A stretch of 64,000 nt of DNA. It comes from Cordylochernes scorpioides (lineage: Eukaryota; Arthropoda; Arachnida; Pseudoscorpiones; Chernetidae). The position numbers were made by a program, and so were the translations under genes. Below are positions 2,478 through 64,000 of the stretch, one piece after another; within the stretch, counting starts at the first letter, position 1, and every line of letters begins with the position of its first letter. The DNA is taken from the NCBI GenBank assembly GCA_030710605.1, contig CP092863.1, positions 115,634,680 through 115,698,679 of the forward strand. The letters are read 5' to 3'. A model generated the notes under the pieces. That model was not told the origin of the DNA. It ran no database searches and saw only the letters and a program-made list of their open reading frames with translations.

Positions 2478-2750
2478 CTAACATCCGCTGCACATTTCAG
2501 GAAGGAGTGGTCGTCCATACAATAGCAAGATATCATTTTGCTGCCAATGTACAATGTTGAGCATTTTCCATGTCGTCATTTTGTCGATCCCCAATCTTCT
2601 AGGGTGTTTCTTTAAGCATTTCTCGATGTCATTTAATGCTCCATGCGATCCCGCCCGGCATTCAATAAGTAAGTATTTGATCGTACCACCTCCAGGAGAC
2701 CATCCCATTGCGGCCGAATCATTTCCCACCCAACTTATAACGCCGTCCAT
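2478..2750 (-). CDS. Small hypothetical ORF in the leader, sense to the LTR element
   Basis: 90 codons from an ATG (MDGVISWVGNDSAAMGW...) to a TAG, ending in LLPEMCSGC. I do not recognise the protein. The composition looks protein-like (few homopolymers, a KKHPRRLGID segment), unlike the AT-rich surroundings. The right copy has the same sequence at about 24062-24334 but lost one base near codon 8, which breaks the start there. Downstream of that base the frame is kept, with about three amino-acid changes. It could be a captured exon, a leader uORF or chance. Confidence 0.35.
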   Translation of the reverse strand: MDGVISWVGNDSAAMGWSPGGGTIKYLLIECRAGSHGALNDIEKCLKKHPRRLGIDKMTTWKMLNIVHWQQNDILLLYGRPLLPEMCSGC

Positions 2751-4357
2751 ATCGCGTAATTGAAATTAGTGTAAAACTCAAAGAATAAGACCTTAATCTC
2801 TTAATTCTTTATTAATTTCAGTTGGCTCAACATGAATCTTCTCAATTATTAATTTAGTACAGTGGCGTGACATGTCACACTTCTTCTAGTTCTTTCGCAA
2901 GCTCGATTAATCCCAGTGAAAGCCAGTTCAGGCGTCAATCCCGTGCTAACCCGTCATGCATGACTTCAAATTTGGAAATTATTAGACCTGAATATTTGCA
3001 GTGGCATCTGCTTCCACTGAAAGTATTTAAGACACAAGGCTGCCTCTTTAAATCACTGTCTTTACTCCCACATGCCTGTGTAAACTTTAACCATGACCTT
3101 ATCAATTCTCAAAATTCTGCCTATCGAGTATCCTGAGAATCAATGTTCTTCTTGTCTACGGCGGATTAACACAATAATTGTTCCCTAGAGTTATCTGCGT
3201 CGAGTGGTCAGTCTGTACTACTAATTCTCCACTCTAACTCCAGGATTCCTTTATCTACTCAGGCTGTTCAAAATTTTTCAAGACAGTTGTTCAAATCCCC
3301 AATGATAATCTGCTAAATTTCGATAATTATTGAAATTCTCATTAAACAGACTAACTACACCTTCCTGACACAGAAGTGTCCAGCATCAAGATATGGCGTA
3401 CTGCCCATTTCTTCATTTGATGACTGTGTCAAATTACAGCTGAAGAAACATACTAAGCATATAACTGGTTTAAATTTCATGTAATCTCATCATGCCTTCT
3501 GCTGGCAAATATTTACTGTAAAAATTCAATACTATCAAGATGGTTTTATTTGTCTTCATCCAAAAAAAATGTTTCAGAAATAGAATCTTGGAAATCTCTA
3601 CTAAAGACAAAAATTATACATTTGTCAATTCAGGATAACCTTCCCTTGTCAGAGTGTATACAGGATATTTAAGATCATATGCAGTTGGAGGCATCATGAA
3701 AAAAAAAAAAGTCGGTTGCCTGACGCGTCTTTTTATGGTGATCAAATTTCTCTCTTCACGGGTACGCTAACTGGATCTTCAATTCTATTTTCACCTTAAG
3801 GCTCATATATCTGGATGCACAGGCTAGTATGATTTGATAGAAAGCGCTATTAAAATGAAGTTAAGATATTTGTATCCAGCAATAATTATCAGAACTCACC
3901 TCTGCTGTGAGAAAATTATATCAGAGCTATGATGAAAAAAAATGCTAAGTCATTTCAGTAGACTACTGTAAAACACTGATCACCGTTCTAAATTTGAACC
4001 ATGGGAAATCCAACCTCATTTCTCATACTGTATATAATAATTTGAGAAAGTAAAATAAAGAAATTGTAATCAATGGTGCTCGCAACAGAATTCAAAATGA
4101 TTGAGACACAGAACATTATAAATAATGTCCAGCAAGCAGGGTACCAAACCATCTTTATATTACAACATTTCCACAAAATATCTATAGGGCGATATGTTAC
4201 ATTCCATACTCACAAACATCTATAACAATAGCCAACTACTTAAGAAACTCTGGCATCCAAACGTATTACTGTAATTCCCCTAACATAGGCTCCACCATAA
4301 AAGTCCGCTATCTAAAATAATCCTACTATCATAAAACCCACTAACCAAAACAGAGAA

Positions 4358-10476: not shown

Positions 10477-11895
10477 CACTGCGTGACATTGAAAATGGAA
10501 CACCAAGAAATAGTGGCCAGAAAGTGATGAAACTCGGCAGACAGAGAGAGACAGGGACGAACAATAAGTGATCTTTATTTCAAAATGATAGTCATAATAC
10601 AGAGCGAGAACGGCGTCGGCTTAGTAGCAAATAGGACCACCGCGGACGGCGATGCACGCAGCAACACGTCTAGGTAGAGAGTCAATCAGAGTACGGATGG
10701 CATCCTGAGGGATGGCTCTCCATTCCCTCTCAACCATTTGCCACAGTTCGTCTTCTGAACGCGGCTGTGGCAAGGCATGCAAACGGCGTCCAATGATGTC
10801 CCAGACGTGCTCGATTGGTGAGAGATCAGGAGAGTACGGTGGCCAGGGAAGCATCTGTACATCTTGCAGAGCTTGTTGGCTAATGCGAGCAGTGTGCGGT
10901 CGGGCGTTATCCTGCTGATAAAGGGCATTGGGTACCCCCTGAAGGTAGGGGAGTGTCACCGGTCGCAGCACATCATCAACGTATCGTTGGGCCGTCATAG
11001 TGCCCTGAATACGAAGTAAAGGTGACCTGGAATCATACGCGATTGCGCCCCAAACCATGATTCCACGTTGTCGCACGGTGGGGCGTTCCACAATTGCTGC
11101 CGGATTGGACCTTTCTCCACGTCGACGCCACACGCGTACACGGCGACTATCACTGGACAAGCAGAAACGCGACTCATCTGAGAACACGACCCTGTGCCAT
11201 TCCGTCATCCACGTCGATCTAGCCCGGCACCATTCCAAACGTTGGCGCCTATTCGGTGGGGTCAATGGCAGTCTTCTTACTGGACGGCATGAGTGCAAGC
11301 CATTAGCAACATTTCGACGGGAAATGGTTCTTGTCGAGATGGAATGATCTAGTGTGTCTTGCACATGTTGCAGGATGGCGGTACAAGTGGCTTGTGGGGC
11401 CGCCACTGCTTGTCGAAGGATACGCCGATCCACACGTGCTGACGTCACTCTGGTTGCACCGACATTCCTATAAATTGCCACATTTCCTTGTTCCAACCAT
11501 CTTCTCCACAGTCGGTGCACCGTGGACGCACCAAGGTGTGTATCAGCTGCGATTTGACGTATGGACCAACCTGCCTTTTTCAGTCCGATCACCATGCCCC
11601 TCGTAAAAGCGTCTGTCTGTTTGAACTGCCTCCGTTTACGATGACCTGGCATTCTCTGTTATTACACGTGTCTTTTGACACAATAACAAAATTTCTACAA
11701 TGATTTTCCTTGAAGAAATAACGACACGAATACTGTCCTTTCTGCAAGTTCCTTCCCTTATATCTTACTCCATGTGCGCACGAGAGCTGCGCATTTTACA
11801 TCATTTGCATAACTCGGTTAGGCGCGTCTACCCTGAAATTTGCATAATTTTCTGGCCACTATTTCTTGGTGTTCCATTTTCAATGTCACGCAGTG
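10477..11895 (-). mobile_element. Complete Tc1-type DNA transposon (1419 bp)
   Basis: The ends are inverted repeats of 47 bp, identical by eye, starting CACTGCGTGACATTGAAAAT. They are flanked by TA on both sides (10475-10476 and 11896-11897), the normal target duplication of Tc1/mariner elements. The single transposase gene is uninterrupted and lies on the minus strand. Intact ends and frame suggest a recent, possibly active copy. Confidence 0.95.
10621..11652 (-). CDS. Tc1-family transposase, intact
   Basis: 343 codons from ATG to TAA, the normal length for Tc1 transposases. The N-terminus holds a helix-turn-helix DNA-binding region (about residues 10-60; SIRQIAADTHLGASTVHRLW). The catalytic core has the first Asp in VVFSDESRF, the second in YQQDNARPH and the Glu in SPDLSPIEHVWD. 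I count 32 residues between the second Asp and the Glu, two fewer than the usual DD34E. The enzyme cuts at the inverted repeats and reinserts at TA (family knowledge). It is GC-richer than its surroundings, as expected for a recent arrival. No frameshift or stop was seen. Confidence 0.95.
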   Translation of the reverse strand: MPGHRKRRQFKQTDAFTRGMVIGLKKAGWSIRQIAADTHLGASTVHRLWRRWLEQGNVAIYRNVGATRVTSARVDRRILRQAVAAPQATCTAILQHVQDTLDHSISTRTISRRNVANGLHSCRPVRRLPLTPPNRRQRLEWCRARSTWMTEWHRVVFSDESRFCLSSDSRRVRVWRRRGERSNPAAIVERPTVRQRGIMVWGAIAYDSRSPLLRIQGTMTAQRYVDDVLRPVTLPYLQGVPNALYQQDNARPHTARISQQALQDVQMLPWPPYSPDLSPIEHVWDIIGRRLHALPQPRSEDELWQMVEREWRAIPQDAIRTLIDSLPRRVAACIAVRGGPICY

Positions 11896-36240: not shown

Positions 36241-36327
36241 AGTGATGGCATCAACATTTGGAATTCATTTTATTCAGCTCATAGGAACAATAACTTCTTA
36301 GGTCCATTGAAGTCCATCAAAAATTAT

Positions 36328-36700
36328 AAGGTACAATTTGGATTATAGATGATAGATACAAGAAGACCTAATCCATTATGTATTATTATTTTCTTTTGTA
36401 GCTATAATCTCTAATCCAAATTGTGCTTTATCAGGGTAATAAGACTAAATTCAAATAGTGTGTGACATTTCGGTAACAGTGTTGTTACCATCTTCAGACA
36501 AAAGAACTGAATAAGAAAAAATATCGCAACATTTTTGAGCATTATTTAAGAACATGTGATAATTTTTCTCATTTAAGTCTTTTGTCTGACAATGGTAACA
36601 ACGCTCTTACTAAAATATCACACACTATTTATTTATTTGGATTTGGTTTCATTACTTTGTGATTCAGTACTTTTGTCTGATAATGGTAACAACACTGTTA
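36328..36700. repeat. Decayed hammerhead-like elements
   Basis: A head fragment at 36328-36378, an arm with TTTCGGTAACAGTGTTGTTA at 36430-36510, and diverged opposite arms at 36575-36660 and 36664-36700. Confidence 0.55.
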
Positions 36701-38807: not shown

Positions 38808-39953
38808 TTAATTTGCATGATACATATATGCAACTGCTGCTATTGCAATGGATATAGAAATGGTTATAGTCCATTGTGATGTTGGGAGGAATTTGGTCAA
38901 ATGTGTCATAATTTTAGATCGTCTGCTTACTTGTACTTTACGTGGTGAATACCAATGATGTGAAAATTTACTTCCAGTTTCTTTATAAATATTATTTTGT
39001 ATCTTTTTAAGATAATCTGGTGAATAAGTATTAAAAAGTTCTTTTGCTTTATTAATATGTTCTTCAATATTAATTTTATATGGAATGTTACTAAGTACTG
39101 CATGTACACAAGCCATATTACATTCTTCTTGCAATACAATAGGTGCATTTTCCAAAACACTTGATGCAATAATATATAATGGAAAAGTATGATGACTTAC
39201 TATGAATAAATCAAACAGACGAACAACATCTTCATAATTTGTTAAAACATGGCCATACCAAGTTATTAACCAACTTAATCCAAATAAAACACCAACTTCT
39301 GATTCTAAAAGATAATTATAAAGTTCTTTCTGTTCTTTTTGTATAATTAGATAAATATTGCTAAGCATTTCAACTGTTTTTTCCATTGTATCTTCAAGAA
39401 AAATTTTAAAATGGGTTTTTGAAAGTTTTTCTATTGCAATAAATGCATGTTCTTCACCCAAAACAAGAAGAAATGTTATACAAATATCATGAAAACCTTG
39501 ATAATAATGAAGTTTTGGATTTTTAATCAAAATTCTCATTATCAGACGAACTAATTCATCTAACATACCTGTCTTTTTGCTTTCATCTATGCTGGGTGGA
39601 AATCTTTTGAGGGATCTTTGTACATCCATAACAACCAAAGCATAATTTGGATGATTCTCAATTTCTTCATTTGTAGGTCTTGGTGAAGTTTCATAATAAT
39701 TAAGGTTCAAAAGAATCGGCCATATTTTTCTTCGCAAATGATCTGAGAGAAGTCCATGTTCTTCTATTGCTAACTGCTTCAAAGACTTCTCATCTTGTTT
39801 CCTTAGTGCAGAAATTATTTTCAACAACTTAGGTTTATAAACAGGATCTTTAAAAAATGCTTTCGTTTCTTCATCTATCTCAAATTTCCCATCTCGAATT
39901 TCTTCATCCAACTGATCTATGCCTTCCAAGTTATTTGATAATGCATCGGTCAT
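38808..39953 (-). CDS. TBC1D20: TBC1D20-like Rab GTPase-activating protein, single exon
   Basis: 381 codons from the first ATG (MTDALSNNLEGIDQLDEE). An upstream in-frame TTG is not used. The TBC domain spans about residues 60-300. The two catalytic fingers are present: Arg113 in VVMDVQRSLKRFPP and Gln152 in HYYQGFHDICITF. A hydrophobic C-terminal segment (about 360-378, SQWTITISISIAIAAVAYMY) fits a tail anchor. TBC1D20 is an ER-anchored GAP that stimulates GTP hydrolysis by Rab1/Rab18-class Rabs in ER-Golgi traffic (family knowledge). Length is close to the roughly 400-residue vertebrate protein. There is no intron, stop or frameshift, and I see no flanking target duplication or poly-A that would prove a retrocopy. 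It is the only clear host protein gene here. Confidence 0.92.
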   Translation of the reverse strand: MTDALSNNLEGIDQLDEEIRDGKFEIDEETKAFFKDPVYKPKLLKIISALRKQDEKSLKQLAIEEHGLLSDHLRRKIWPILLNLNYYETSPRPTNEEIENHPNYALVVMDVQRSLKRFPPSIDESKKTGMLDELVRLIMRILIKNPKLHYYQGFHDICITFLLVLGEEHAFIAIEKLSKTHFKIFLEDTMEKTVEMLSNIYLIIQKEQKELYNYLLESEVGVLFGLSWLITWYGHVLTNYEDVVRLFDLFIVSHHTFPLYIIASSVLENAPIVLQEECNMACVHAVLSNIPYKINIEEHINKAKELFNTYSPDYLKKIQNNIYKETGSKFSHHWYSPRKVQVSRRSKIMTHLTKFLPTSQWTITISISIAIAAVAYMYHAN

Positions 39954-41752
39954 TATCTCAATCTCCAATTATCTAGAATACATATATAAAATAATATTTT
40001 TGAACTAATACTCACACAAGAAAAGATAAACCTCACAAAATAAGAAATAAACACGAATGTTATTGCGAAACTAATAGTGCCAGATAATTATTTTTAAAGG
40101 TATTTATGGTCTATGAATTTGATTTTAAAAAAAATTCATATAATATTATATTTTTATTTTTTGTCATTTTTTCGAAATAGATTTCTTGCAATGAGCAAAC
40201 TGGAATAAATTCTGATAAATCGCTACATTTAATATTAAACTCTTTTATGTAGCCTAAATAAAATTGAGGGTGTAGGGTAGTAGGTATCATAAAATATATT
40301 AAGAAAAAAAAAAAGAATTAAAAGAAATAAAATATCTTGATTATCATTTAAAGATAAATTATATTGGTTAGAGAGCTCTCTAAATTTATTATTGAAACAT
40401 AAAGCCTTTCTTCTCAGATATATTCTTTAGATTTATTACGCCAAAACTTTAATAATACTTAGAACTGACTGTGTTGTAGACATGTTTGTTGAATGGGGGC
40501 CGTTTTTATATATTTGAAAATATTATTTATTTTAAATTAATTTAATAAAATTTTAATTCTCTGATATTGGTATTCTCTCATTTTTTATATGTAAAAATAT
40601 GATTTCAAATAAATATAAAACGAGTGAAAATCCCAAAAAATAAAAAAGTGAAGAGTAAGAAAATATGTTGATGCAGTTAAATGGAGAGAGAAGCGAACAA
40701 AAGAAAAAAAAGTGAAAAGAAAGATTTTAAAGATTGTCCCATAAAAGATTAAGTCCATAAAATGAAAGGGAAACAAAACAAGTTTGCAGAAAATATTAGA
40801 GGTCCAAAGATTACGAATTAATTTTGAGACAGAATATCAAAGACCTGCAGAGAATTACAGTATTATTTATAAATTATTTATAATTAATTTTTTTTTGGGC
40901 ATTATATAGGCATATAGCGCTGATCTCCTGATTATGAAATGTAAAATTTTAGTGGCGCGAAATTAGGATATTGTACCTTGACAAAATTTCAGGTTTATTT
41001 ATTCTTAGAATTTCACTTTGCTTGTGTAATATGTTCAAGTTCTATACTTTATCATTTAGATTAAGAAAAAACTTAATTTAGGGGCTTAGAACTGGCTGTC
41101 GTACTAATGTTCTAGTAGGAAATATCTTTATTTACGGGCTGCTAACCAGAATGGATTATTTTTTAGCCCGATGTTCTAGTATTTAATTATTTGGATAAGA
41201 TCAGTTTCACTTTTTTTTTTTTTACCAAATGCAAAATGTGAATGTTTTAAAATTATATTAAAAAAAAATAAAAATAAAAAAATATTTTTTCTGTGATTCT
41301 ATTTTTTTTCCATATCATCATTTATTGTGTTTATTTATTTTTGCAAAGGCCATACGTCAATTTTAATTTTAAACACTTATTATTGTCCTTTTATTTATAT
41401 ATTTTTAAATGGCTCAAGGAAAGCTCAAAGTTAAAACAAAAGCCCCAATTAAAATTCAAAAGAAAAAGACAAATCGCATTACTAAAGGTATTAACTTTTG
41501 CCCACATGGTTTATACTTTGAATATAAAATATTCTTTAGATTATACAATCATATATAATTATAATAATACACACATATAAATCAATTTTATATTCACATA
41601 TGTGTGTACATCAAAATAGAAATTTTAAACCAAATACATTATCAGGGTTAGATAATTATGCTGGCAGTGAAAACCGTCTGCGATTGTATTATTCCTCAAC
41701 TACTAGCCCTCACTAATCGCGGTAAACGGAAATAGTTCCATTTTAAAAATAA
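39954..41752. other. AT-rich 5' flank of the TBC1D20-type gene and intergenic DNA
   Basis: No gene or repeat family recognised. Short ORFs here are low-complexity. No clear promoter element was recognised immediately upstream of the gene. Confidence 0.5.
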
Positions 41753-42784: not shown

Positions 42785-43027
42785 GCCACTGGCTCCGCAA
42801 AAAGTCGTGCAACATACATATAATAGGGATTCACAGAAATACAAATGAAAAAAAAATCAAATATAAAAATAGTTTCCGAGTTGTAGAGGGTTAGGGGGAC
42901 AATGGGGGTGGACATTATATCTGTGTTGAATATGCTGGAACTGTTGATCTTCTGTTGTCTTTGGAGATTGTAGATTCTAGAATGAGTCTATTGTTTTGTA
43001 GAACACTCAGAGATTTTTCAAGGTTCT
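42785..43027. other. Spacer
   Basis: No recognised feature. The segment ends in TTCTAAAC, part of the duplication flanking the next element. Confidence 0.4.
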
Positions 43028-43677
43028 AAACACAAGGTAATAAAACCAAATAAATAAATAGTGTGTGACGTTTCGGTAACAGCGTTGTTACCATCTTCAG
43101 ACAAAAGTACTGAATGTCATTCATGTCTGAAGTAAGTCATTTAGTACTTTTGTCTGAAGATGGTAACAACACTGTTACCGAAACGTCACACACAATTTAT
43201 TTATTTGGATTTGGACTTATTACCTTGTGTTTATAATCTACTAGCCGAATGACCCGGGCAACGCCCGTGTTTTACCCGATTGAATGTTTTGATTCAAATA
43301 CTATTTGTTACAATTATAAATTGGCGCCTTAAATAAATGCATATATTAGTTAATAACTATAGCCTATGTGCTTTATCTGTCTATGTACCGTAGGCGTCTC
43401 TTACTGGGAAAAAGAAAGAGAGGATTCCATTTAGTTATTAACTAATATATGCATTTATTTAAGGAGCGACCTGCTCCAACACAATAGTTACAAAAACCAA
43501 AAAGCGAGTGGGGGGGCAAAGTCAAAAACAAAGTGTCTCGCGTAGTGGTGGCGTGATTGTAGCCAACCAATAGGAGAGCGCCATTCCAAAAAAAAAAAGC
43601 AAACAGTGACAGAGATGAAGACATGACGCATGACGCTCGTAACTGTATATAGAATAATCCAAATTGTGCCTTATCAA
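43028..43677 (-). repeat. Hammerhead-like retroelement copy, interrupted by a Helitron
   Basis: Inverted arms at 43028-43105 and 43145-43240 each carry TTTCGGTAACAGCG-type hammerhead-like sequence. The head (TAATCCAAATTGTGCCTTAT) continues at 43655-43677 after the Helitron. GTTCTAAAC flanks both ends (about 43018-43027 and 43679-43688) as a target duplication. Confidence 0.8.
43241..43654 (-). mobile_element. Non-autonomous Helitron, copy 2 (414 bp)
   Basis: On the minus strand it starts TTCTATATACAGTTACGAGC and ends with the hairpin ACGGGCGTTGCCCGGGT and CATTCGGCTAG. It splits the element head ATAATCTA|TAATCC exactly between A and T, the expected Helitron target. Confidence 0.85.
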
Positions 43678-43819
43678 AGTTCTAAACGTTCTTGTTTCAG
43701 ATAAAAGACCCAAGAAATGCAAGGTGGTAACTGAAAGCCAGAAAATTAGCAAAGTAAGTTTTTCTTTTTCTTTTCTTTAATTGTTATCATCATTATCATA
43801 TAGGACAGCCATTTACTGA

Positions 43820-46154: not shown

Positions 46155-46565
46155 CTTCTTCTTATCTCCACACTGGGTGAAGTAGAATGCGGCTGCCTTT
46201 GTCATTAAGACTGGGAACACTACTCAGTGGCAGGCCGACCTAGCTCCAAAATAAATGGCTGCCTCTGACATGAGGAACAGACGCCATGTGCAGCCGCTCC
46301 TAACATGGAATACAAACGTTGCTCATCCTGTATCCCTGGATTAGGAGCCCTTACAGGGTACTATCAGCTGGGCCAGCTGAACCCAGGTTTTTTAGTGAGC
46401 TTGTTACTGCTCCCCACTCCTCCTTTTTCATCCGGGCTTGGGACCGGCAAAGGCGGAGTTATTACCTTATTTATTATGGTTGAAACACTCTCTGGAACAA
46501 TGGCAGATCGAAGAGAAGTTTTTACAAGCTTGACACGCTAATATGATTGAGTGGAGATAAGAACA
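46155..46565. repeat. Retroposon family 2, inverted copy plus a tail fragment
   Basis: 46155-46470 (minus) ends at GGGACCGGCAAAGGCGGAGT and lacks part of its tail region. 46505-46565 (plus) is a tail-only piece. With 45777-46143 it forms a tail-to-tail pair. Confidence 0.65.
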
Positions 46566-47113: not shown

Positions 47114-47258
47114 GCCTTTTTCTTAATTTATGCACCTTATCCCAGTACAATATTACATTTGTACTATTTTTTCACAAAGTTACCTCTGTCTCCTTAAAAA
47201 AAAATAGACTCCCAACGACATCAAAGATTTGTCCAATAGTAAACAATAGACCATCATA

Positions 47259-47375
47259 CAAGGTAATAAGACCAAATCCAAATAAATAAATAGTGTATGA
47301 TGTTTCAGTAACAGTGTTGTTACCGAAACGTCACACACTTTTATTTATTTGGATTTGGTCTTATTACCTTGTGTG
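47259..47375. repeat. Hammerhead-like element collapsed to one core between inverted arms
   Basis: ACAAGGTAATAAGACCAAAT ... ATTTGGTCTTATTACCTTGT with a single GTTGTTACCGAAACGTCACA core in the centre. The two inverted arms share the stem. Confidence 0.65.
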
Positions 47376-54520: not shown

Positions 54521-54545
54521 TAATATTCCTCAATAAAGTAAAATG

Positions 54546-54900
54546 ATAAAGCACAATTTAGATTATAGATTATGAACACAAGGTAATAAGACCAAAATAA
54601 AATATATAATTAGTGTGTGACGTTTCAGTAACAACGTTGTTACCATCTTCAGACAAAAGTACTGAAATACTAATTATTTATTTGGATTTGGTCTTATTGC
54701 ATTGTGTTATTAAAATTTAAGAAAAAGAACATTATAGACTAAGAAACACAAGGTAATAAGACCAAATCCAAATAAATAAATAGTGACGTTTCGGTAACAC
54801 CGTTGTTACAAAAATGTCACATACTATTTTTTTTTTTAATATTTATTTGGTCTTATTACCTTTTGTTTTTAATCTATAATCCGAATTTTGCCTTATCATT
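54546..54900. repeat. Two adjacent hammerhead-like element copies in opposite orientation
   Basis: The first (54546-54710) has its head at the left (GCACAATTTAGATTATAGAT), the second (54747-54900) at the right (TAATCTATAATCCGAATTTT). Cores are partly decayed. Confidence 0.6.
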
Positions 54901-59535: not shown

Positions 59536-59700
59536 CCTCAACAGTAGAACTACCTCTCTGTAAAGGACAACACCTAAGTACAAAGCCAAAGTGTCCTTTA
59601 AGGAGAGATCTCCTCTTATCAGAAAGCTGCCACACCATCAAGCTTTACAAGCTTGACACCTTAATATGATTGAGTGGAGATAAGAAAGAAGAAGAGAAAG
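59536..59700. repeat. Tigger-like MITE fragment and retroposon tail
   Basis: CAGTAGAACTACCTCTCTGT then AAAGGACAACACCTA at 59543-59630, then AAGCTTGACACCTTAATATG and the GATAAGAAAGAAG tail at 59640-59697. Confidence 0.6.
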
Positions 59701-59727
59701 CTGTTAAATAGTAAAAATGATCTTTTA

Positions 59728-59883
59728 GCAAAGAAAAACTTGATAAGGCACAATTTGGATTATAGATTATAAACACGATTTAGTACTTTTGTCTGAAGAT
59801 GGTAACAACGCTGTTACCGAAACGTCACACACTATTTATTTATTTGGATTTGGTCTTATTACCTTGTGTTTGCAAAGAAAAAC
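59728..59883 (+). mobile_element. Hammerhead-like retroelement, single-arm copy with 12-bp target duplication
   Basis: The element 59740-59871 has the head GATAAGGCACAATTTGGATT and then one arm: TTTGTCTGAAGA, stem GGTAACA/TGTTACC, GAAACGTCACACAC, and TATTTGGATTTGGTCTTATT. GCAAAGAAAAAC lies on both sides (59728-59739 and 59872-59883). This is the simplest, intact form of the family. Confidence 0.85.
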
Positions 59884-60045
59884 AGTTTTTTTTCTAGAGA
59901 GGTGTTCTCTATCGAGAGTTTCCTTTAATGAATGTTCTACCATATTCTTATATAATTAATTATTCACTTTTTAAAAATTATTATCCCATTGTATAATTAT
60001 ACAAGGTCATGGAGACTATATTCATAGATCAAATTCACAATTTCA

Positions 60046-60418
60046 ACTCCGCCTTTGCCGGTCCCAAGCCCGGATGAAAAAGGAGGAGGGGGAGCAGTAA
60101 CAAGCTCACTAAAAAACCTGGGCTCAGCTGGCCCGGCTGATAGTACTCTGTAAGGGCTCCAGGGATACAGGATGAGCAGCGTTTGTACTCCATGTTAGGA
60201 GCGGCTGCACATGGCGTCTGTTCCTCATGTCAGAGGCGGCCATTTATTTTTGAGCTAAGTCGGACTGCCACTGAGTAGTGCTCCCAGTCTTAATGACAAA
60301 GGCAGACACATTCTACTTCACCCAATCATGATGATGGTTGTCAACAGACACCATCAACAAGCTCTACAAGCTTGACACCCTAATATGATTGAGTGGAGAT
60401 AAGAAAGAAGAAGAAGAC
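60046..60418 (+). repeat. Retroposon family 2, full copy
   Basis: Begins CTCCGCCTTTGCCGGTCCCA and ends TGATTGAGTGGAGATAAGAA then AGAAGAAGA. Confidence 0.8.
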
Positions 60419-60569
60419 AATCTTGGTAGAGTTGGAATACAGGTCCTGTCTTGAGGCTTCCATACATTCCAAGAGGTGGTCTGGTGAGATCTCTTTGGTC
60501 CTGTAGATGGTGCATTGTGGGAAGGTCTATTATTTACTATAATAATTGATAACCATTATAGGATTATGA

Positions 60570-60752
60570 AAAAAGGCATCTTCTTATCGTGCAACTGAAA
60601 GTTGCTGATGGCTTGCGCCATCTATCGGAATAAATATCAACTATTCTTGTTGAAAAAAAAAAAAAAATCAACGAGAATAGTTGATATTTATTCCGATAGA
60701 TGGCGCAAGCCATCAGCAACTTTCAGTTGCACGATAAGGAGATGTCTTTTTT
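60570..60752. repeat. Nearly perfect hairpin, fold-back family B
   Basis: Arms of about 75 bp (CATCTTCTTATCGTGCAACT...CAACTATTC and complement) with an A-rich centre. Contains GCTTGCGCCATCTATCGG in both arms. Confidence 0.85.
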
Positions 60753-60893
60753 AATAATTATGCACCTTATCCCAATACAATATCACATTTGCATTATAGG
60801 ATTAGTTTACCTTTAAAAAGGGTGTCAGTAGGGCGCTAAAAAATATCGGAAATAAATAAAAAAAAAAGGTTATAGTAAATATTTGATCACATG

Positions 60894-61242
60894 TCTATAT
60901 ATATATAAAAATGAATGTTTGTATGTATGTTTGTTTGTTTGTATGTCCGGTATACAAATTCGCAGTAGTTCACTAATTCAAACCAAAATTTCCATACATA
61001 GGTAAAAAAATATGGGGAAGACGATAGGCTATTTTTAAAAAATATATAAATCAATTATTAAAACTATATATTCAAATTATTCTATTTAGCTCATGAACAG
61101 CGCCCTCTATCAAAGATTAAATTATGCTGATGCAAACAAATAGATAATGCTAATAAAAAACAATTATAAAAAAAAATCTTATCTAAATATATATCACTCG
61201 GGTAGATATGCACACGGGGCGAAGCCCGGGTCACCCGTCTAG
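60894..61242 (+). mobile_element. Non-autonomous Helitron, third type (349 bp)
   Basis: Starts TCTATATATATATAAAAATG and ends GGGGCGAAGCCCGGGTCA then CCCGTCTAG before a T. Confidence 0.75.
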
Positions 61243-61285
61243 TTACTTAATATAAAGTAATAACGTGTTATCTATATATAGAAAA

Positions 61286-61617
61286 CTAGCCGAGGGCAAC
61301 ACCCGGGTTTTAACCGATTAAATGTTTTTATTCAAATACTATTTGTTACATTGATAAGGCACAATTTGGATTATAGATTATAAACACAAGGTAATAAGAC
61401 CAAATCCAAATAAATAAATAGTGTGTGACATTTCGGTGACAGCGTTGTTACCATCTTCAGACAAAAGTACTGAATGTATTTATGTACTGAATTCAGTACT
61501 TTTGTCTGAAGATGGTAGCAATGCTGTTACCGAAACGTCACACACTATTTATTTATTTGGATTTGGTCTTATTAACTTGTACTATTTGTTACAATTATAA
61601 ATTGGCGCCGTGGATAT
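61286..61617 (-). mobile_element. Helitron 3' part (family of 32233), split by a hammerhead-like element
   Basis: Plus-strand CTAGCCGAGGGCAACACCCG then GGTTTTAACCGATTAAATG, continuing after the insert as ACAATTATAAATTGGCGCC. The 5' part is missing or diverged. Confidence 0.75.
61338..61593. mobile_element. Hammerhead-like retroelement, inverted pair with 13-bp target duplication
   Basis: The element 61351-61580 has head, reverse arm, a short centre and forward arm. ACTATTTGTTACA flanks it on both sides (61338-61350 and 61581-61593). The uninterrupted target is seen at 32600-32635 and 43290-43320 in other Helitron copies. Confidence 0.9.
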
Positions 61618-62290
61618 CACTCTTGTGAAACGTCCCGCTCCAAACTCTGTGTGTTTTCAAAATATAAAAATAAAATGTAAATTTTCACAACGATATTTGA
61701 AAATTGTATTATTTTGATTTTTTATATGAATATATTTTAAATTCGATATATATACATAAAATGATAGCAAGTGATTTCTTGTTCCTACGCCATCTGGAGA
61801 TGCCGGTTATGTAAATTTCTATCTTTTTGCTTATTCAGAAGATTAACATATTTGTAAATATAATTGTGTATATAAGGAAGTGTAAGTTTAATAAAAGTGT
61901 GTCAGTAACAATCAGGTGTTGGTGAATTATTAGTGTCATCAGGGTGTTGTGGGCACTTTTAAGGAAGCATATAGGCTTCGGTTGGAGACCAGAAGAAGTC
62001 TGGCAAGAAGATACAGTCAACACAACTATTTAGATAAGGCAAGACATATCCAGCAAGCTTTCCGAGCTTAGAAGGTGAGGCAGTGATCGTATCCGAAACA
62101 CCATCATTATGTCACTCAAGGTCATTCTTGTTAAACGTCCCGTTCCACCAATTCCCTTGCACCGTCCATCCTTCCTCAAATTTACTTCGCTAAGTTTCCG
62201 CATTGAGACGCTTGGTTGCGAGTTAATAACTTTAAGGATATTCGAGATAGAAGCCTGAAAATTTGCCTATAAGTTTTTCCAGATTCAACT
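61618..62290. other. Spacer
   Basis: No gene or repeat recognised except TACGCCATCTGGAGATGCC near 61788. Confidence 0.4.
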
Positions 62291-62662
62291 CTTTATAATG
62301 TTGATAAGGCACAATTTGTATTATAGATTATAAACACAAGGTAATAAGACCAAATCCAAATAAATAAATAGTGTGTGACGTTTCGGTAACAGCGTTGTTA
62401 CCATCTTCAGACAAAAGCACTGAATGAGAAATTTCACCACAGCATGGTTTATAACAGATAAAAAGAAGTGTGTTTCTCAGATAAATATCTTCTTATCTGC
62501 CTTCTTGTTTACACACTTGATAACAGTAACTATTTAAAAACATGCTGTGGTAAAATTTCTCATTATTACTTTTTTCTGAAGATCATAACAACGCTGTTAC
62601 CGAAACGTCACACACTATTTATTTATTTGGATTTGGTCTTATTACCTTGTCTTTATAATGTT
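62291..62662. mobile_element. Hammerhead-like retroelement, inverted pair with 12-bp target duplication
   Basis: The element 62303-62650 has the head, a reverse arm (62335-62420), a central part with a second inverted pair (GAGAAATTTCACCACAGCAT and complement) and a forward arm. CTTTATAATGTT flanks it at 62291-62302 and 62651-62662. Confidence 0.9.
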
Positions 62663-62742
62663 AAAATTTCAGTCAGATTAGTTACGTATTATGAACGTGT
62701 ATAGCCGACAAACATACATACATACACTGACTTATATATATA

Positions 62743-63037
62743 TGTGGTAATATGATGAGGTGGGAAGAGAAATAAGGACACCACAATTTAGAAGAGGAAC
62801 CCAGACAACCAGAGAGAGAAAGAGGGAGAGACGGGCCCAGCAAAGCTGGGCGGCCGTTCGTGTCACACGCAATTCCCAACTGTCTTAAAAGTCCCAAGGT
62901 GTTAACGGACGGGTCTCAGTTGTCGCCCCTTGGAATGTCGCTGATGTCTCAAGTGACCGGACTTTACCCTCCCGTCTCTCTCTGCGCTGGCTCTAGGTTT
63001 GCTTTATTATTCCTGGAAGAGTATATATTATTGCATA
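62743..63037 (+). repeat. Possible solo LTR, copy 2
   Basis: TGTGGTAATATGATGAGG ... TTATTATTCCTGGAAGAGTA then TATATTATTGCA. See 7539-7846. Confidence 0.4.
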
Positions 63038-63545: not shown

Positions 63546-64000
63546 TCATGATACCGAGGGGGGTTTGGTGGCTGCAGGGAATATTACATTGTAAATTTCA
63601 GGTAAATCAATTTTTCTATTGAGGCTATGGAATTTACTTGATAGGATAGATTCAATGATTAGTCTTTGGTGTTTGTTGGCAATATTGGAATAGTAAATTT
63701 TCGGTGATGCAATGTTGAAGGAATGGCCAGTTTCATTTATGTGCTGTACTATTAAGGATCTATGGTCTAAGTTATCAATATTTCTTTTGTGTTCATGAAT
63801 TCTAATATTGACATGTCTCCCGGTTTCGCCTACGTAGACTTTTGGGCAGTTCAAACATTCTATGGAGTAAATAGCGTTTCGTGGTGTGCTGCTAGGTTCA
63901 TTGAGTTTCATGATCTGGTTTCGGAGAAGGGATCCAGAGGTAGGTGCGCAGGTGAAGTAGGTTTTGATTCCAAATTTCAATAAGAATCTCGCTATTGTGG
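63546..64000 (-). CDS. Penelope-like element, C-terminal GIY-YIG endonuclease (partial)
   Basis: The frame is open from the window edge to a TGA at 63546, about 150 codons, and no true start is inside. It shows AIYSIECLNCPKVYVGETGR (the GIY and YIG boxes with a Cys-x2-Cys knuckle between), HEHKRNI, NETGHSF, QRLIIESIL with the catalytic Glu, and SLNRK. The endonuclease nicks target DNA for primed reverse transcription (family knowledge). The reverse transcriptase would lie right of the window. No stop or frameshift, so this copy may be young. The tail KPPSVS is short. Confidence 0.88.
   Translation of the reverse strand, partial: TIARFLLKFGIKTYFTCAPTSGSLLRNQIMKLNEPSSTPRNAIYSIECLNCPKVYVGETGRHVNIRIHEHKRNIDNLDHRSLIVQHINETGHSFNIASPKIYYSNIANKHQRLIIESILSSKFHSLNRKIDLPEIYNVIFPAATKPPSVS

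Follow-up and report, generated by a model that had tools for sequence, protein, structure and literature searches.

Hammerhead motifs and internal starts of reverse transcription have already been published for Penelope-like elements (PLEs) (PMC11167929). With the PLE of Anolis known as PAc, both strands are cleaved and extended in vitro, reverse transcription starts internally, and the "tail" is the stretch bounded by two start sites of the reverse transcriptase (RT) (PMC11167929). Rotifer elements are likewise on record as having inverted pseudo-long terminal repeats (pLTRs), of which one carries a tail, in a head-to-head arrangement (PMC3846280). Here we describe short insertions with hammerhead-like cores in a 64,000-nt stretch of DNA (the window, C1:115634680-115698679) from the pseudoscorpion Cordylochernes scorpioides, the source genome of which comprises 2.62 Gb in 24 contigs. 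An annotation made from the letters of the window (the original prediction) had described these insertions as a non-autonomous, ribozyme-bearing retroelement. In our analysis they are very probably the leader end (pLTR) of a PLE, copied from both strands and from two start points on the RNA.

Assignment of the insertions to a Penelope-like element

The original prediction had recognized three copies with clean target duplications, each duplication being found where it had been placed (Table 1). Its view of the copies as reverse-transcription products with hammerhead-like cores and a palindromic ACGT stem III, short and without an encoded protein, is supported. For copy 4 the duplication is real, at 9 bp, but the copy itself is broken by other sequence from roughly 43241 to 43653. 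Cores are present in each copy as proposed, although some of those in copies 2, 3 and 4 carry one or two changes. With up to three mismatches, the 34-nt core was found 10 times in the window (average of 100 shuffles, 0.00) and the 17-nt head also 10 times (shuffle mean, 0.22). Copy 2 lies inside another repeat, and its joined flanks match an unoccupied copy of that repeat in the window at 56/59 positions. Because this unoccupied copy has one ACTATTTGTTACA, the duplication at copy 2 is an insertion footprint.

The "head" of the original prediction corresponds, as its reverse complement, to the extended tail (CCTTGTGTTTATAATCTATAATCCAAATTGTGCCTTATC), and the complementary strand of the head runs on unbroken from the tail of the direct arm (..TTATTACCTTGTGTTTATAATCTATAATCCAAATTGTGCCTTATC). 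In the window copies the inverted arm reaches ..CCTTATC, and the direct arm falls about 30 nt short of that point, its end being at or just after ..CCTTGT. One unit accounts for all parts, the inverted arm contributing its PLE tail as the "head".

At locus L071 (C17:13,946,000-13,947,400), a GIY-YIG-encoding frame ends just upstream of the leader, and this fragment matched PF01541 (E 1.5e-5). Locus L173 (C17:4,329,100-4,332,700) is a tandem copy consisting of leader (1-307), an 860-codon open frame (stop to stop) and leader again (coding end and leader at 2537-3108), with coding copies 2824 bp apart. Its coding region is near-identical to the L071 fragment, and its frame shows 28% identity over 521 aa (E 5e-58) to a PLE protein with an RVT_1 match, together with a weak PDB match to a retron-type RT (E 0.0046). 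That PLE protein belongs to the family represented at the edge of the window, which we call family 1; the source of the leader is called family 3 and a further PLE family 2. Among the features by which a PLE is recognized, the sequences showed RT and GIY-YIG in one frame (from the L173 and L071 evidence), pLTRs on both sides, an inverted pLTR with a short 3′ tail, and short duplications of variable length. Judged from these sequences, the unit is the leader (pLTR) of the family 3 PLE, which agrees with the link to a PLE that had been suggested. The window-edge PLE (63546-63998) was rejected as the source of the copies, its leader being different.

Outer ends of the paired arms

Positions in the unit are given on a reference, R, of 621 nt (L071 positions 632-1252), to which all R coordinates refer. 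An arm end at R621 ("with tail") is termed site A, and one at about R588-604 ("without tail") site B. Genome-wide, the exact 17-nt head occurs 17,592 + 18,274 = 35,866 times, compared with 0 for a reversed-pattern control. There are 31,952 matches to a 32-nt arm pattern, 14,575 exact matches to the hammerhead-like core with a free loop, and 924 exact cases of palindromes sharing stem II. From sampled loci we parsed 152 head-to-head (inverted) pairs; loci L009-L038, L069 and L070 and exact duplicate elements were left out, and copies 2 and 3 entered once only, under L039. The elements consist of one inverted and one direct leader copy, both 5′-truncated, with their 3′ ends outward. A target duplication flanked 67 pairs, as opposed to 3/758 controls with a swapped right flank, and 4 of the 94 single arms parsed had an apparent one.

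In pairs with a target duplication the two outer ends lie at different sites, A and B. Among the 67, 63 were A/B, three ?/A and one ?/B (the question mark standing for an unclassified end), and none was A/A or B/B. A strict recount removed 10/67 pairs (repeated duplication strings and a tandem array), some of them probably good, and left 57, of which 54 were A/B, two ?/A, one ?/B and again none A/A or B/B. As the first sample had been chosen by its tail, the arm-selected and incidental samples weigh most for this rule. Their duplication pairs, copy 2 included, were 24 A/B, two ?/A and one ?/B, and after strict removal 20 A/B, one ?/A and one ?/B. Scored by alignment, all 152 pairs divided into 119 A/B, 17 B/B, 3 A/A and 13 with an unclassified end. 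Only one outward-facing couple within 1 kb was present among the 100 exact heads listed.

A corresponding arrangement was seen in family 1, where most arm 3′ ends at 30 loci fell into two classes, R1:265-273 and R1:290-298. After loci had been joined by coordinates, 14 distinct pairs with both arm ends visible were scored by their ends alone; 12 had one end in each class, and in the other two one arm breaks off short of both classes (at 125 and 177). Coding copies lying at most 8 kb apart also face head to head, in 29/32 cases in family 3 and 30/31 in family 1, as scored among the best 150 of 33,147 and 48,881 candidates, respectively. The PLE at the edge of the window has such an inverted partner just beyond it, at C1:115699115 (+).

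Inner breakpoints, target duplications and nicks

Before duplications were measured, 4/63 A/B pairs with repeated or tail-derived duplication strings were removed. The remaining 59 duplications span 9-19 bp, with 13 bp in 23 of them and mostly 13-15 bp, so that the expectation of a variable length, unlike that of a DNA transposon, was borne out. In the tail-left orientation, the base pairs next to the duplication read AAC at one end (A 58%, A 58%, C 36%, with a background of A 36% and C 14%) and nTTT at the other (T 63%, 49%, 46%; background 36%). On the primer-supplying strand each inferred nick has a T-rich motif on its 3′ side, the position to be expected if both strands are cut to leave 3′ overhangs.

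Arm starts were compiled after removal of the 34 pairs that meet in stem II and of the 29 pairs obtained by similarity to copy 3, the latter also being removed before arm lengths were compared. A cluster of 35/178 arms begins at R497-500, 29-32 nt past the TATA-like box TATTTAAAAA, the uniform null used for this count being crude. Both arms of copy 2 begin at this putative RNA 5′ end.

These breakpoints bear on the separate non-autonomous element of the original prediction. Such a self-standing retroelement, similar to a short interspersed nuclear element or a retrozyme, would replicate as a whole palindrome, have head and tail as fixed ends and borrow the PLE enzyme. It would suit the fixed outer ends, the very high copy number and the short copies without coding sequence, and the class with a shared stem II junction could be replicating in this way. 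However, 48 duplication pairs outside the stem II class had 46 distinct pairs of arm starts; after removal of repeats, 42/42 were distinct, and they formed 35 groups at a tolerance of 3 nt, the largest comprising four pairs with the putative RNA 5′ end as the start of either arm. Copy 3 relatives (30 loci of 40 scored places) also vary in arm start, and a replicating palindrome, a candidate prompted by full-length relatives of copy 3, was dropped once their breakpoints proved different. PLE-coding copies such as L071 show the same architecture, and the supposed replicon is itself a pLTR with a PLE tail as its "head". The differing inner breakpoints indicate that pairs form anew, and we regard a self-standing element as unlikely.

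Pairs could instead arise by self-priming, in which the template or one complementary DNA (cDNA) folds back and is copied. Self-priming on an antisense template was inferred for rotifer PLEs (PMC3846280), and the 924 palindromes sharing stem II represent a natural fold-back point. The relative lengths of the arms argue otherwise. Among A/B pairs outside the stem II class, the no-tail arm reached further upstream than the tail arm in 34/65, less far in 17 and equally far in 14; for duplication pairs after removal (n = 29) the figures were 15, 6 and 8. Since a fold-back copy can neither exceed its template nor add a tail absent from it, two priming events are the simplest account, and self-priming appears improbable. 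Pairs whose arms meet in stem II (34/123 pairs; 25/90 A/B pairs) are undecided by arm length. In such pairs two cDNAs could anneal through the complementary halves of stem II.

The hammerhead-like motif

The family 3 core reads CUGAAGA-U-GGUAACA-ACGC-UGUUACC-GAAA-CG-UC, in accord with the hammerhead pattern of CUGANGA, stem II, GAAA and NUH. In families 1, 2 and 3, stems I and II differ in sequence yet stay complementary, stem III is palindromic (ACGT in family 3, AGCU in families 1 and 2), and one unpaired base precedes stem II. One core position is broken in each of the other two families, giving CUGUCGA in family 1 (leaders L070/L024) and CCGAUGA in family 2 (leader L069), changes which we take to be A6 to U and U4 to C, respectively, in the usual numbering. 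Within family 3, eleven non-CpG core positions were 98.2% conserved as compared with 96.0% for the rest (one-sided p 0.003), and among these variation was greatest at position 7, which is free in the motif (A 151, T 24, G 1, C 1). This conservation favours a functional motif in the PLE, as far as can be judged from alignment.

Two checks named in the original prediction gave little. No hammerhead family was among the Rfam matches at E up to 10 in window positions 59600-62800, nor was one matched at the leader loci L069, L070 and L173 at the same limit. Covariation in the GGTAACA/TGTTACC stem was nearly absent among family 3 copies, 2/173 cells showing a both-sided change at one of the seven pairs and the other six pairs showing none that preserved pairing; covariation of the hammerhead stems appears between PLE families only. 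Dimer formation had been proposed as well. The two cores of the short elements are antisense to each other and face opposite ways in one hairpin, and the transcript of copy 2 folds as a single long hairpin (-143.1 kcal/mol, z -23.9). Because of these opposed cores and the single hairpin of copy 2, dimer cleavage in cis is unlikely for the short paired copies. A role of the motif in these short elements is also disfavored by the lack of a clear excess of arm starts at the cut site and by the behavior of ribozyme mutants in vitro (PMC11167929), both described below.

A ribozyme-driven retrozyme, with a cleaved and circularised RNA as its template, would be in keeping with the 14,575 exact cores and their conservation, and for 6/178 arms the start coincides exactly with R548, the predicted cut site. 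In a second sample of 100 arms, 15 began at R548 compared with 21 at 552, 16 at 550 and 13 at 546, and with no distinct peak there the cut-site footprint was dropped. The arms are, moreover, mostly inverted (-+ 12, -- 2 and ++ 1 for neighbors within 400 bp among the 100 arms listed), Rfam gave no match, and ribozyme mutants insert normally in vitro, where cleavage required the protein (PMC11167929). We consider this origin very improbable. A DNA transposon resembling a miniature inverted-repeat transposable element (MITE), with terminal inverted repeats, would explain inverted arms at both ends of short, non-coding, abundant copies, but its probability is close to nil given duplications of no fixed length, ends unequal by about 30 nt, variable inner breakpoints and a unit that is a PLE leader.

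Other features of the window

Coordinates are collected in Table 1. Rfam family mir-2513, the consensus of which includes CUGAAGAUGG, matched both strands of the palindromes at 61423-61543 and 43063-43191 (70.8-75.3 bits; gathering score 89), and PLE palindromes may underlie some of the families annotated as microRNA precursors. Short head-to-tail arrays of leader parts were found at L047 (2703-3023) and L008 (1501-1602), with units of about 119 bp and 35 bp; they are perhaps the start of satellite formation. Type-P1 twister matches at 60040-60094 (+; 48.6 bits, E 4.6e-9) and 46411-46465 (-; 44.4 bits, E 3.7e-7) both scored below the gathering score of 67.2, and one lies in an apparent repeated element (GCCGGTCCCAAGCCCGG..). 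A separate fold-back repeat at 60563-60758 has 91-nt arms that are 96% complementary and spaced by 14 nt. A 386-codon open frame (38808-39968, -) presumably resembles a TBC-domain host gene, and a 345-codon open frame (10621-11658, -) is taken by us to resemble a Tc1/mariner-type transposase.

Table 1. Leader copies, cores and related features in the window, and landmarks on the reference R.
Feature	Position	Strand	Remarks
Copy 1	59740..59871	+	Inverted arm is tail only (R587-621), joined to direct leader arm from R499 to no-tail site
Copy 1 target duplication	59728..59739 and 59872..59883		GCAAAGAAAAAC, 12 bp
Copy 2	61351..61580	+	Inverted arm with tail (R498-621), filler, tailless direct arm (R499-588)
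Copy 2 target duplication	61338..61350 and 61581..61593		ACTATTTGTTACA, 13 bp
Empty site of copy 2 target	43300..43312		In another copy of the host repeat
Copy 3	62303..62650	+	Inverted arm with tail (R474-621), longer tailless direct arm (R406-597)
Copy 3 target duplication	62291..62302 and 62651..62662		CTTTATAATGTT, 12 bp
Copy 4	43032..43678	-	Anatomy as copies 1-3, opposite orientation
Copy 4 target duplication	At 43023 and 43679		GTTCTAAAC, 9 bp
Core, copy 1	59793..59826	+	0 mismatches to CTGAAGATNGTAACAACGCTGTTACCGAAACGTC
Core, copy 2 inverted arm	61427..61460	-	2 mismatches
Core, copy 2 direct arm	61506..61539	+	2 mismatches
Core, copy 3 inverted arm	62377..62410	-	0 mismatches
Core, copy 3 direct arm	62576..62609	+	1 mismatch, weakens stem II
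Core, copy 4	43067..43100	-	0 mismatches
Core, copy 4 other arm	43154..43187	+	1 mismatch
Pair with stem II (GGTAACA..TGTTACC) as shared junction	47258..47374		Both ends tailless; no duplication detected
Two older pairs	54545-54708 and 54731-54897		In each, one end with and one end without tail; no duplication detected
Older unit fragments	36326-36432 and 36432-36664		Tail-tail and no-tail/no-tail, respectively; no duplication detected
Family 1 PLE, C-terminal coding part	63546..63998	-	GIY-YIG-like, below Pfam cut-off
TATA-like box	R468		TATTTAAAAA
Cluster of arm starts	R497-500		Putative RNA 5′ end
ATG of hammerhead region	R520
Predicted hammerhead cut	Between R547 and R548
No-tail ends	About R588-604		Site B
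Tail end	R621		Site A

Discussion

The paired leader copies can be explained by two priming events at one target. In this scheme the PLE protein would nick both strands, leaving 3′ overhangs of about 13 nt, and each 3′ end would serve as primer on a PLE RNA, with site A as the starting point for one strand and site B for the other. Synthesis of both cDNAs would then halt, in many cases near R498 at the RNA 5′ end (about 30 nt past the TATA-like box), and the products would be joined end to end, through filler or through the near-palindrome of stem II. The order of the nicks, the use of two RNA molecules and the repair steps are inferred. Since the start sites lie just 90-125 nt from the RNA 5′ end, short leader-only palindromes are to be expected, and a separate non-autonomous replicon becomes unnecessary.

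Extended to PLEs in general, the same evidence makes it likely, though less so than the origin of the window copies, that integration is an obligately asymmetric twin-primed reaction, in which site A is used on one strand and site B on the other. The "tail" would then record which strand had been primed at which site, head-to-head palindromes would be the normal product, and leader-only palindromes, including much of the 35,866 heads, would be strong-stop products. The literature searched, mostly without subscription papers, yielded no paper on twin priming in PLEs; neither the use of a different start site for each end of an insertion nor a description of leader-only palindromes as strong-stop products was found there, and subscription papers may contain either.

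Several observations weigh against these interpretations. A Pfam search of the whole 860-aa L173 frame gave no match, so the PLE assignment rests on the L071 fragment and on the pairwise comparison. The 17 B/B and 3 A/A pairs run counter to the two-site rule, although 0/20 have a target duplication; one B/B pair is copy 4, whose tail is separated by an insertion, the parsing having overlooked the split and scored 43021-43240 as a tailless (B/B) pair, and the remaining like-ended pairs may have suffered erosion or may be genuine exceptions. The sampled heads and arms all come from one contig, within its first 5 Mb, and the 29 pairs from the similarity search with copy 3 include copy 3 itself. 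A few insertions are nested, for example at L064 and L119, so that their target strings derive from another leader copy, and breakpoint differences of 1-2 nt lie within alignment noise, hence the count at 3 nt tolerance. Arm divergence was 0.049 within pairs (58 pairs) and 0.057 between them (p 0.04); as a test of one versus two templates it was dropped, a star-like family predicting nearly the same values.

On this account of PLE integration, a genome with tens of thousands of short products keeps a readable record of the reaction, which shows where copying starts and where the products are joined, the stagger and motif of the nicks, and the putative RNA 5′ end. For the existing in vitro system the two-site rule, observed in two families with about 28% protein identity, makes a specific prediction. 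The account also explains how a genome can become filled by PLE leaders in the form of short inverted pairs, which could be mistaken for MITEs, retrozymes or microRNA precursors.

Animal non-LTR retrozymes resemble the present copies in being short, repeated and non-autonomous and in having hammerhead motifs and target duplications, but retrozymes form direct tandem repeats (~300 bp) with canonical type I hammerheads and circular RNAs (PMC7229834); here, the arms are inverted pairs with a minimal core that has no Rfam match. The Penelope elements of Adineta vaga share inverted pLTRs, one of which bears a tail (31-bp there), short duplications, a head-to-head arrangement and junction palindromes (PMC3846280). 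For those elements the tail is described as optional, self-priming is inferred and duplications of 8-10 bp are mentioned (PMC3846280), whereas here one tail per duplication-bearing pair is the rule, arm lengths speak against self-priming and the modal duplication is 13 bp. PAc of Anolis (Penelope/Poseidon type) shares a protein with RT and GIY-YIG, a pLTR tandem, a hammerhead motif, internal RT start sites that bound the tail and the use of both strands (PMC11167929). Its hammerhead lies near the 5′ end of the open reading frame (PMC11167929), whereas in the family 3 PLE the frame begins downstream of the hammerhead, so that the motif is probably in the leader. Unlike PAc, the copies sampled here are mostly leader-only palindromes, and their two ends use different start sites, whereas no difference between strands was seen with PAc in vitro (PMC11167929).

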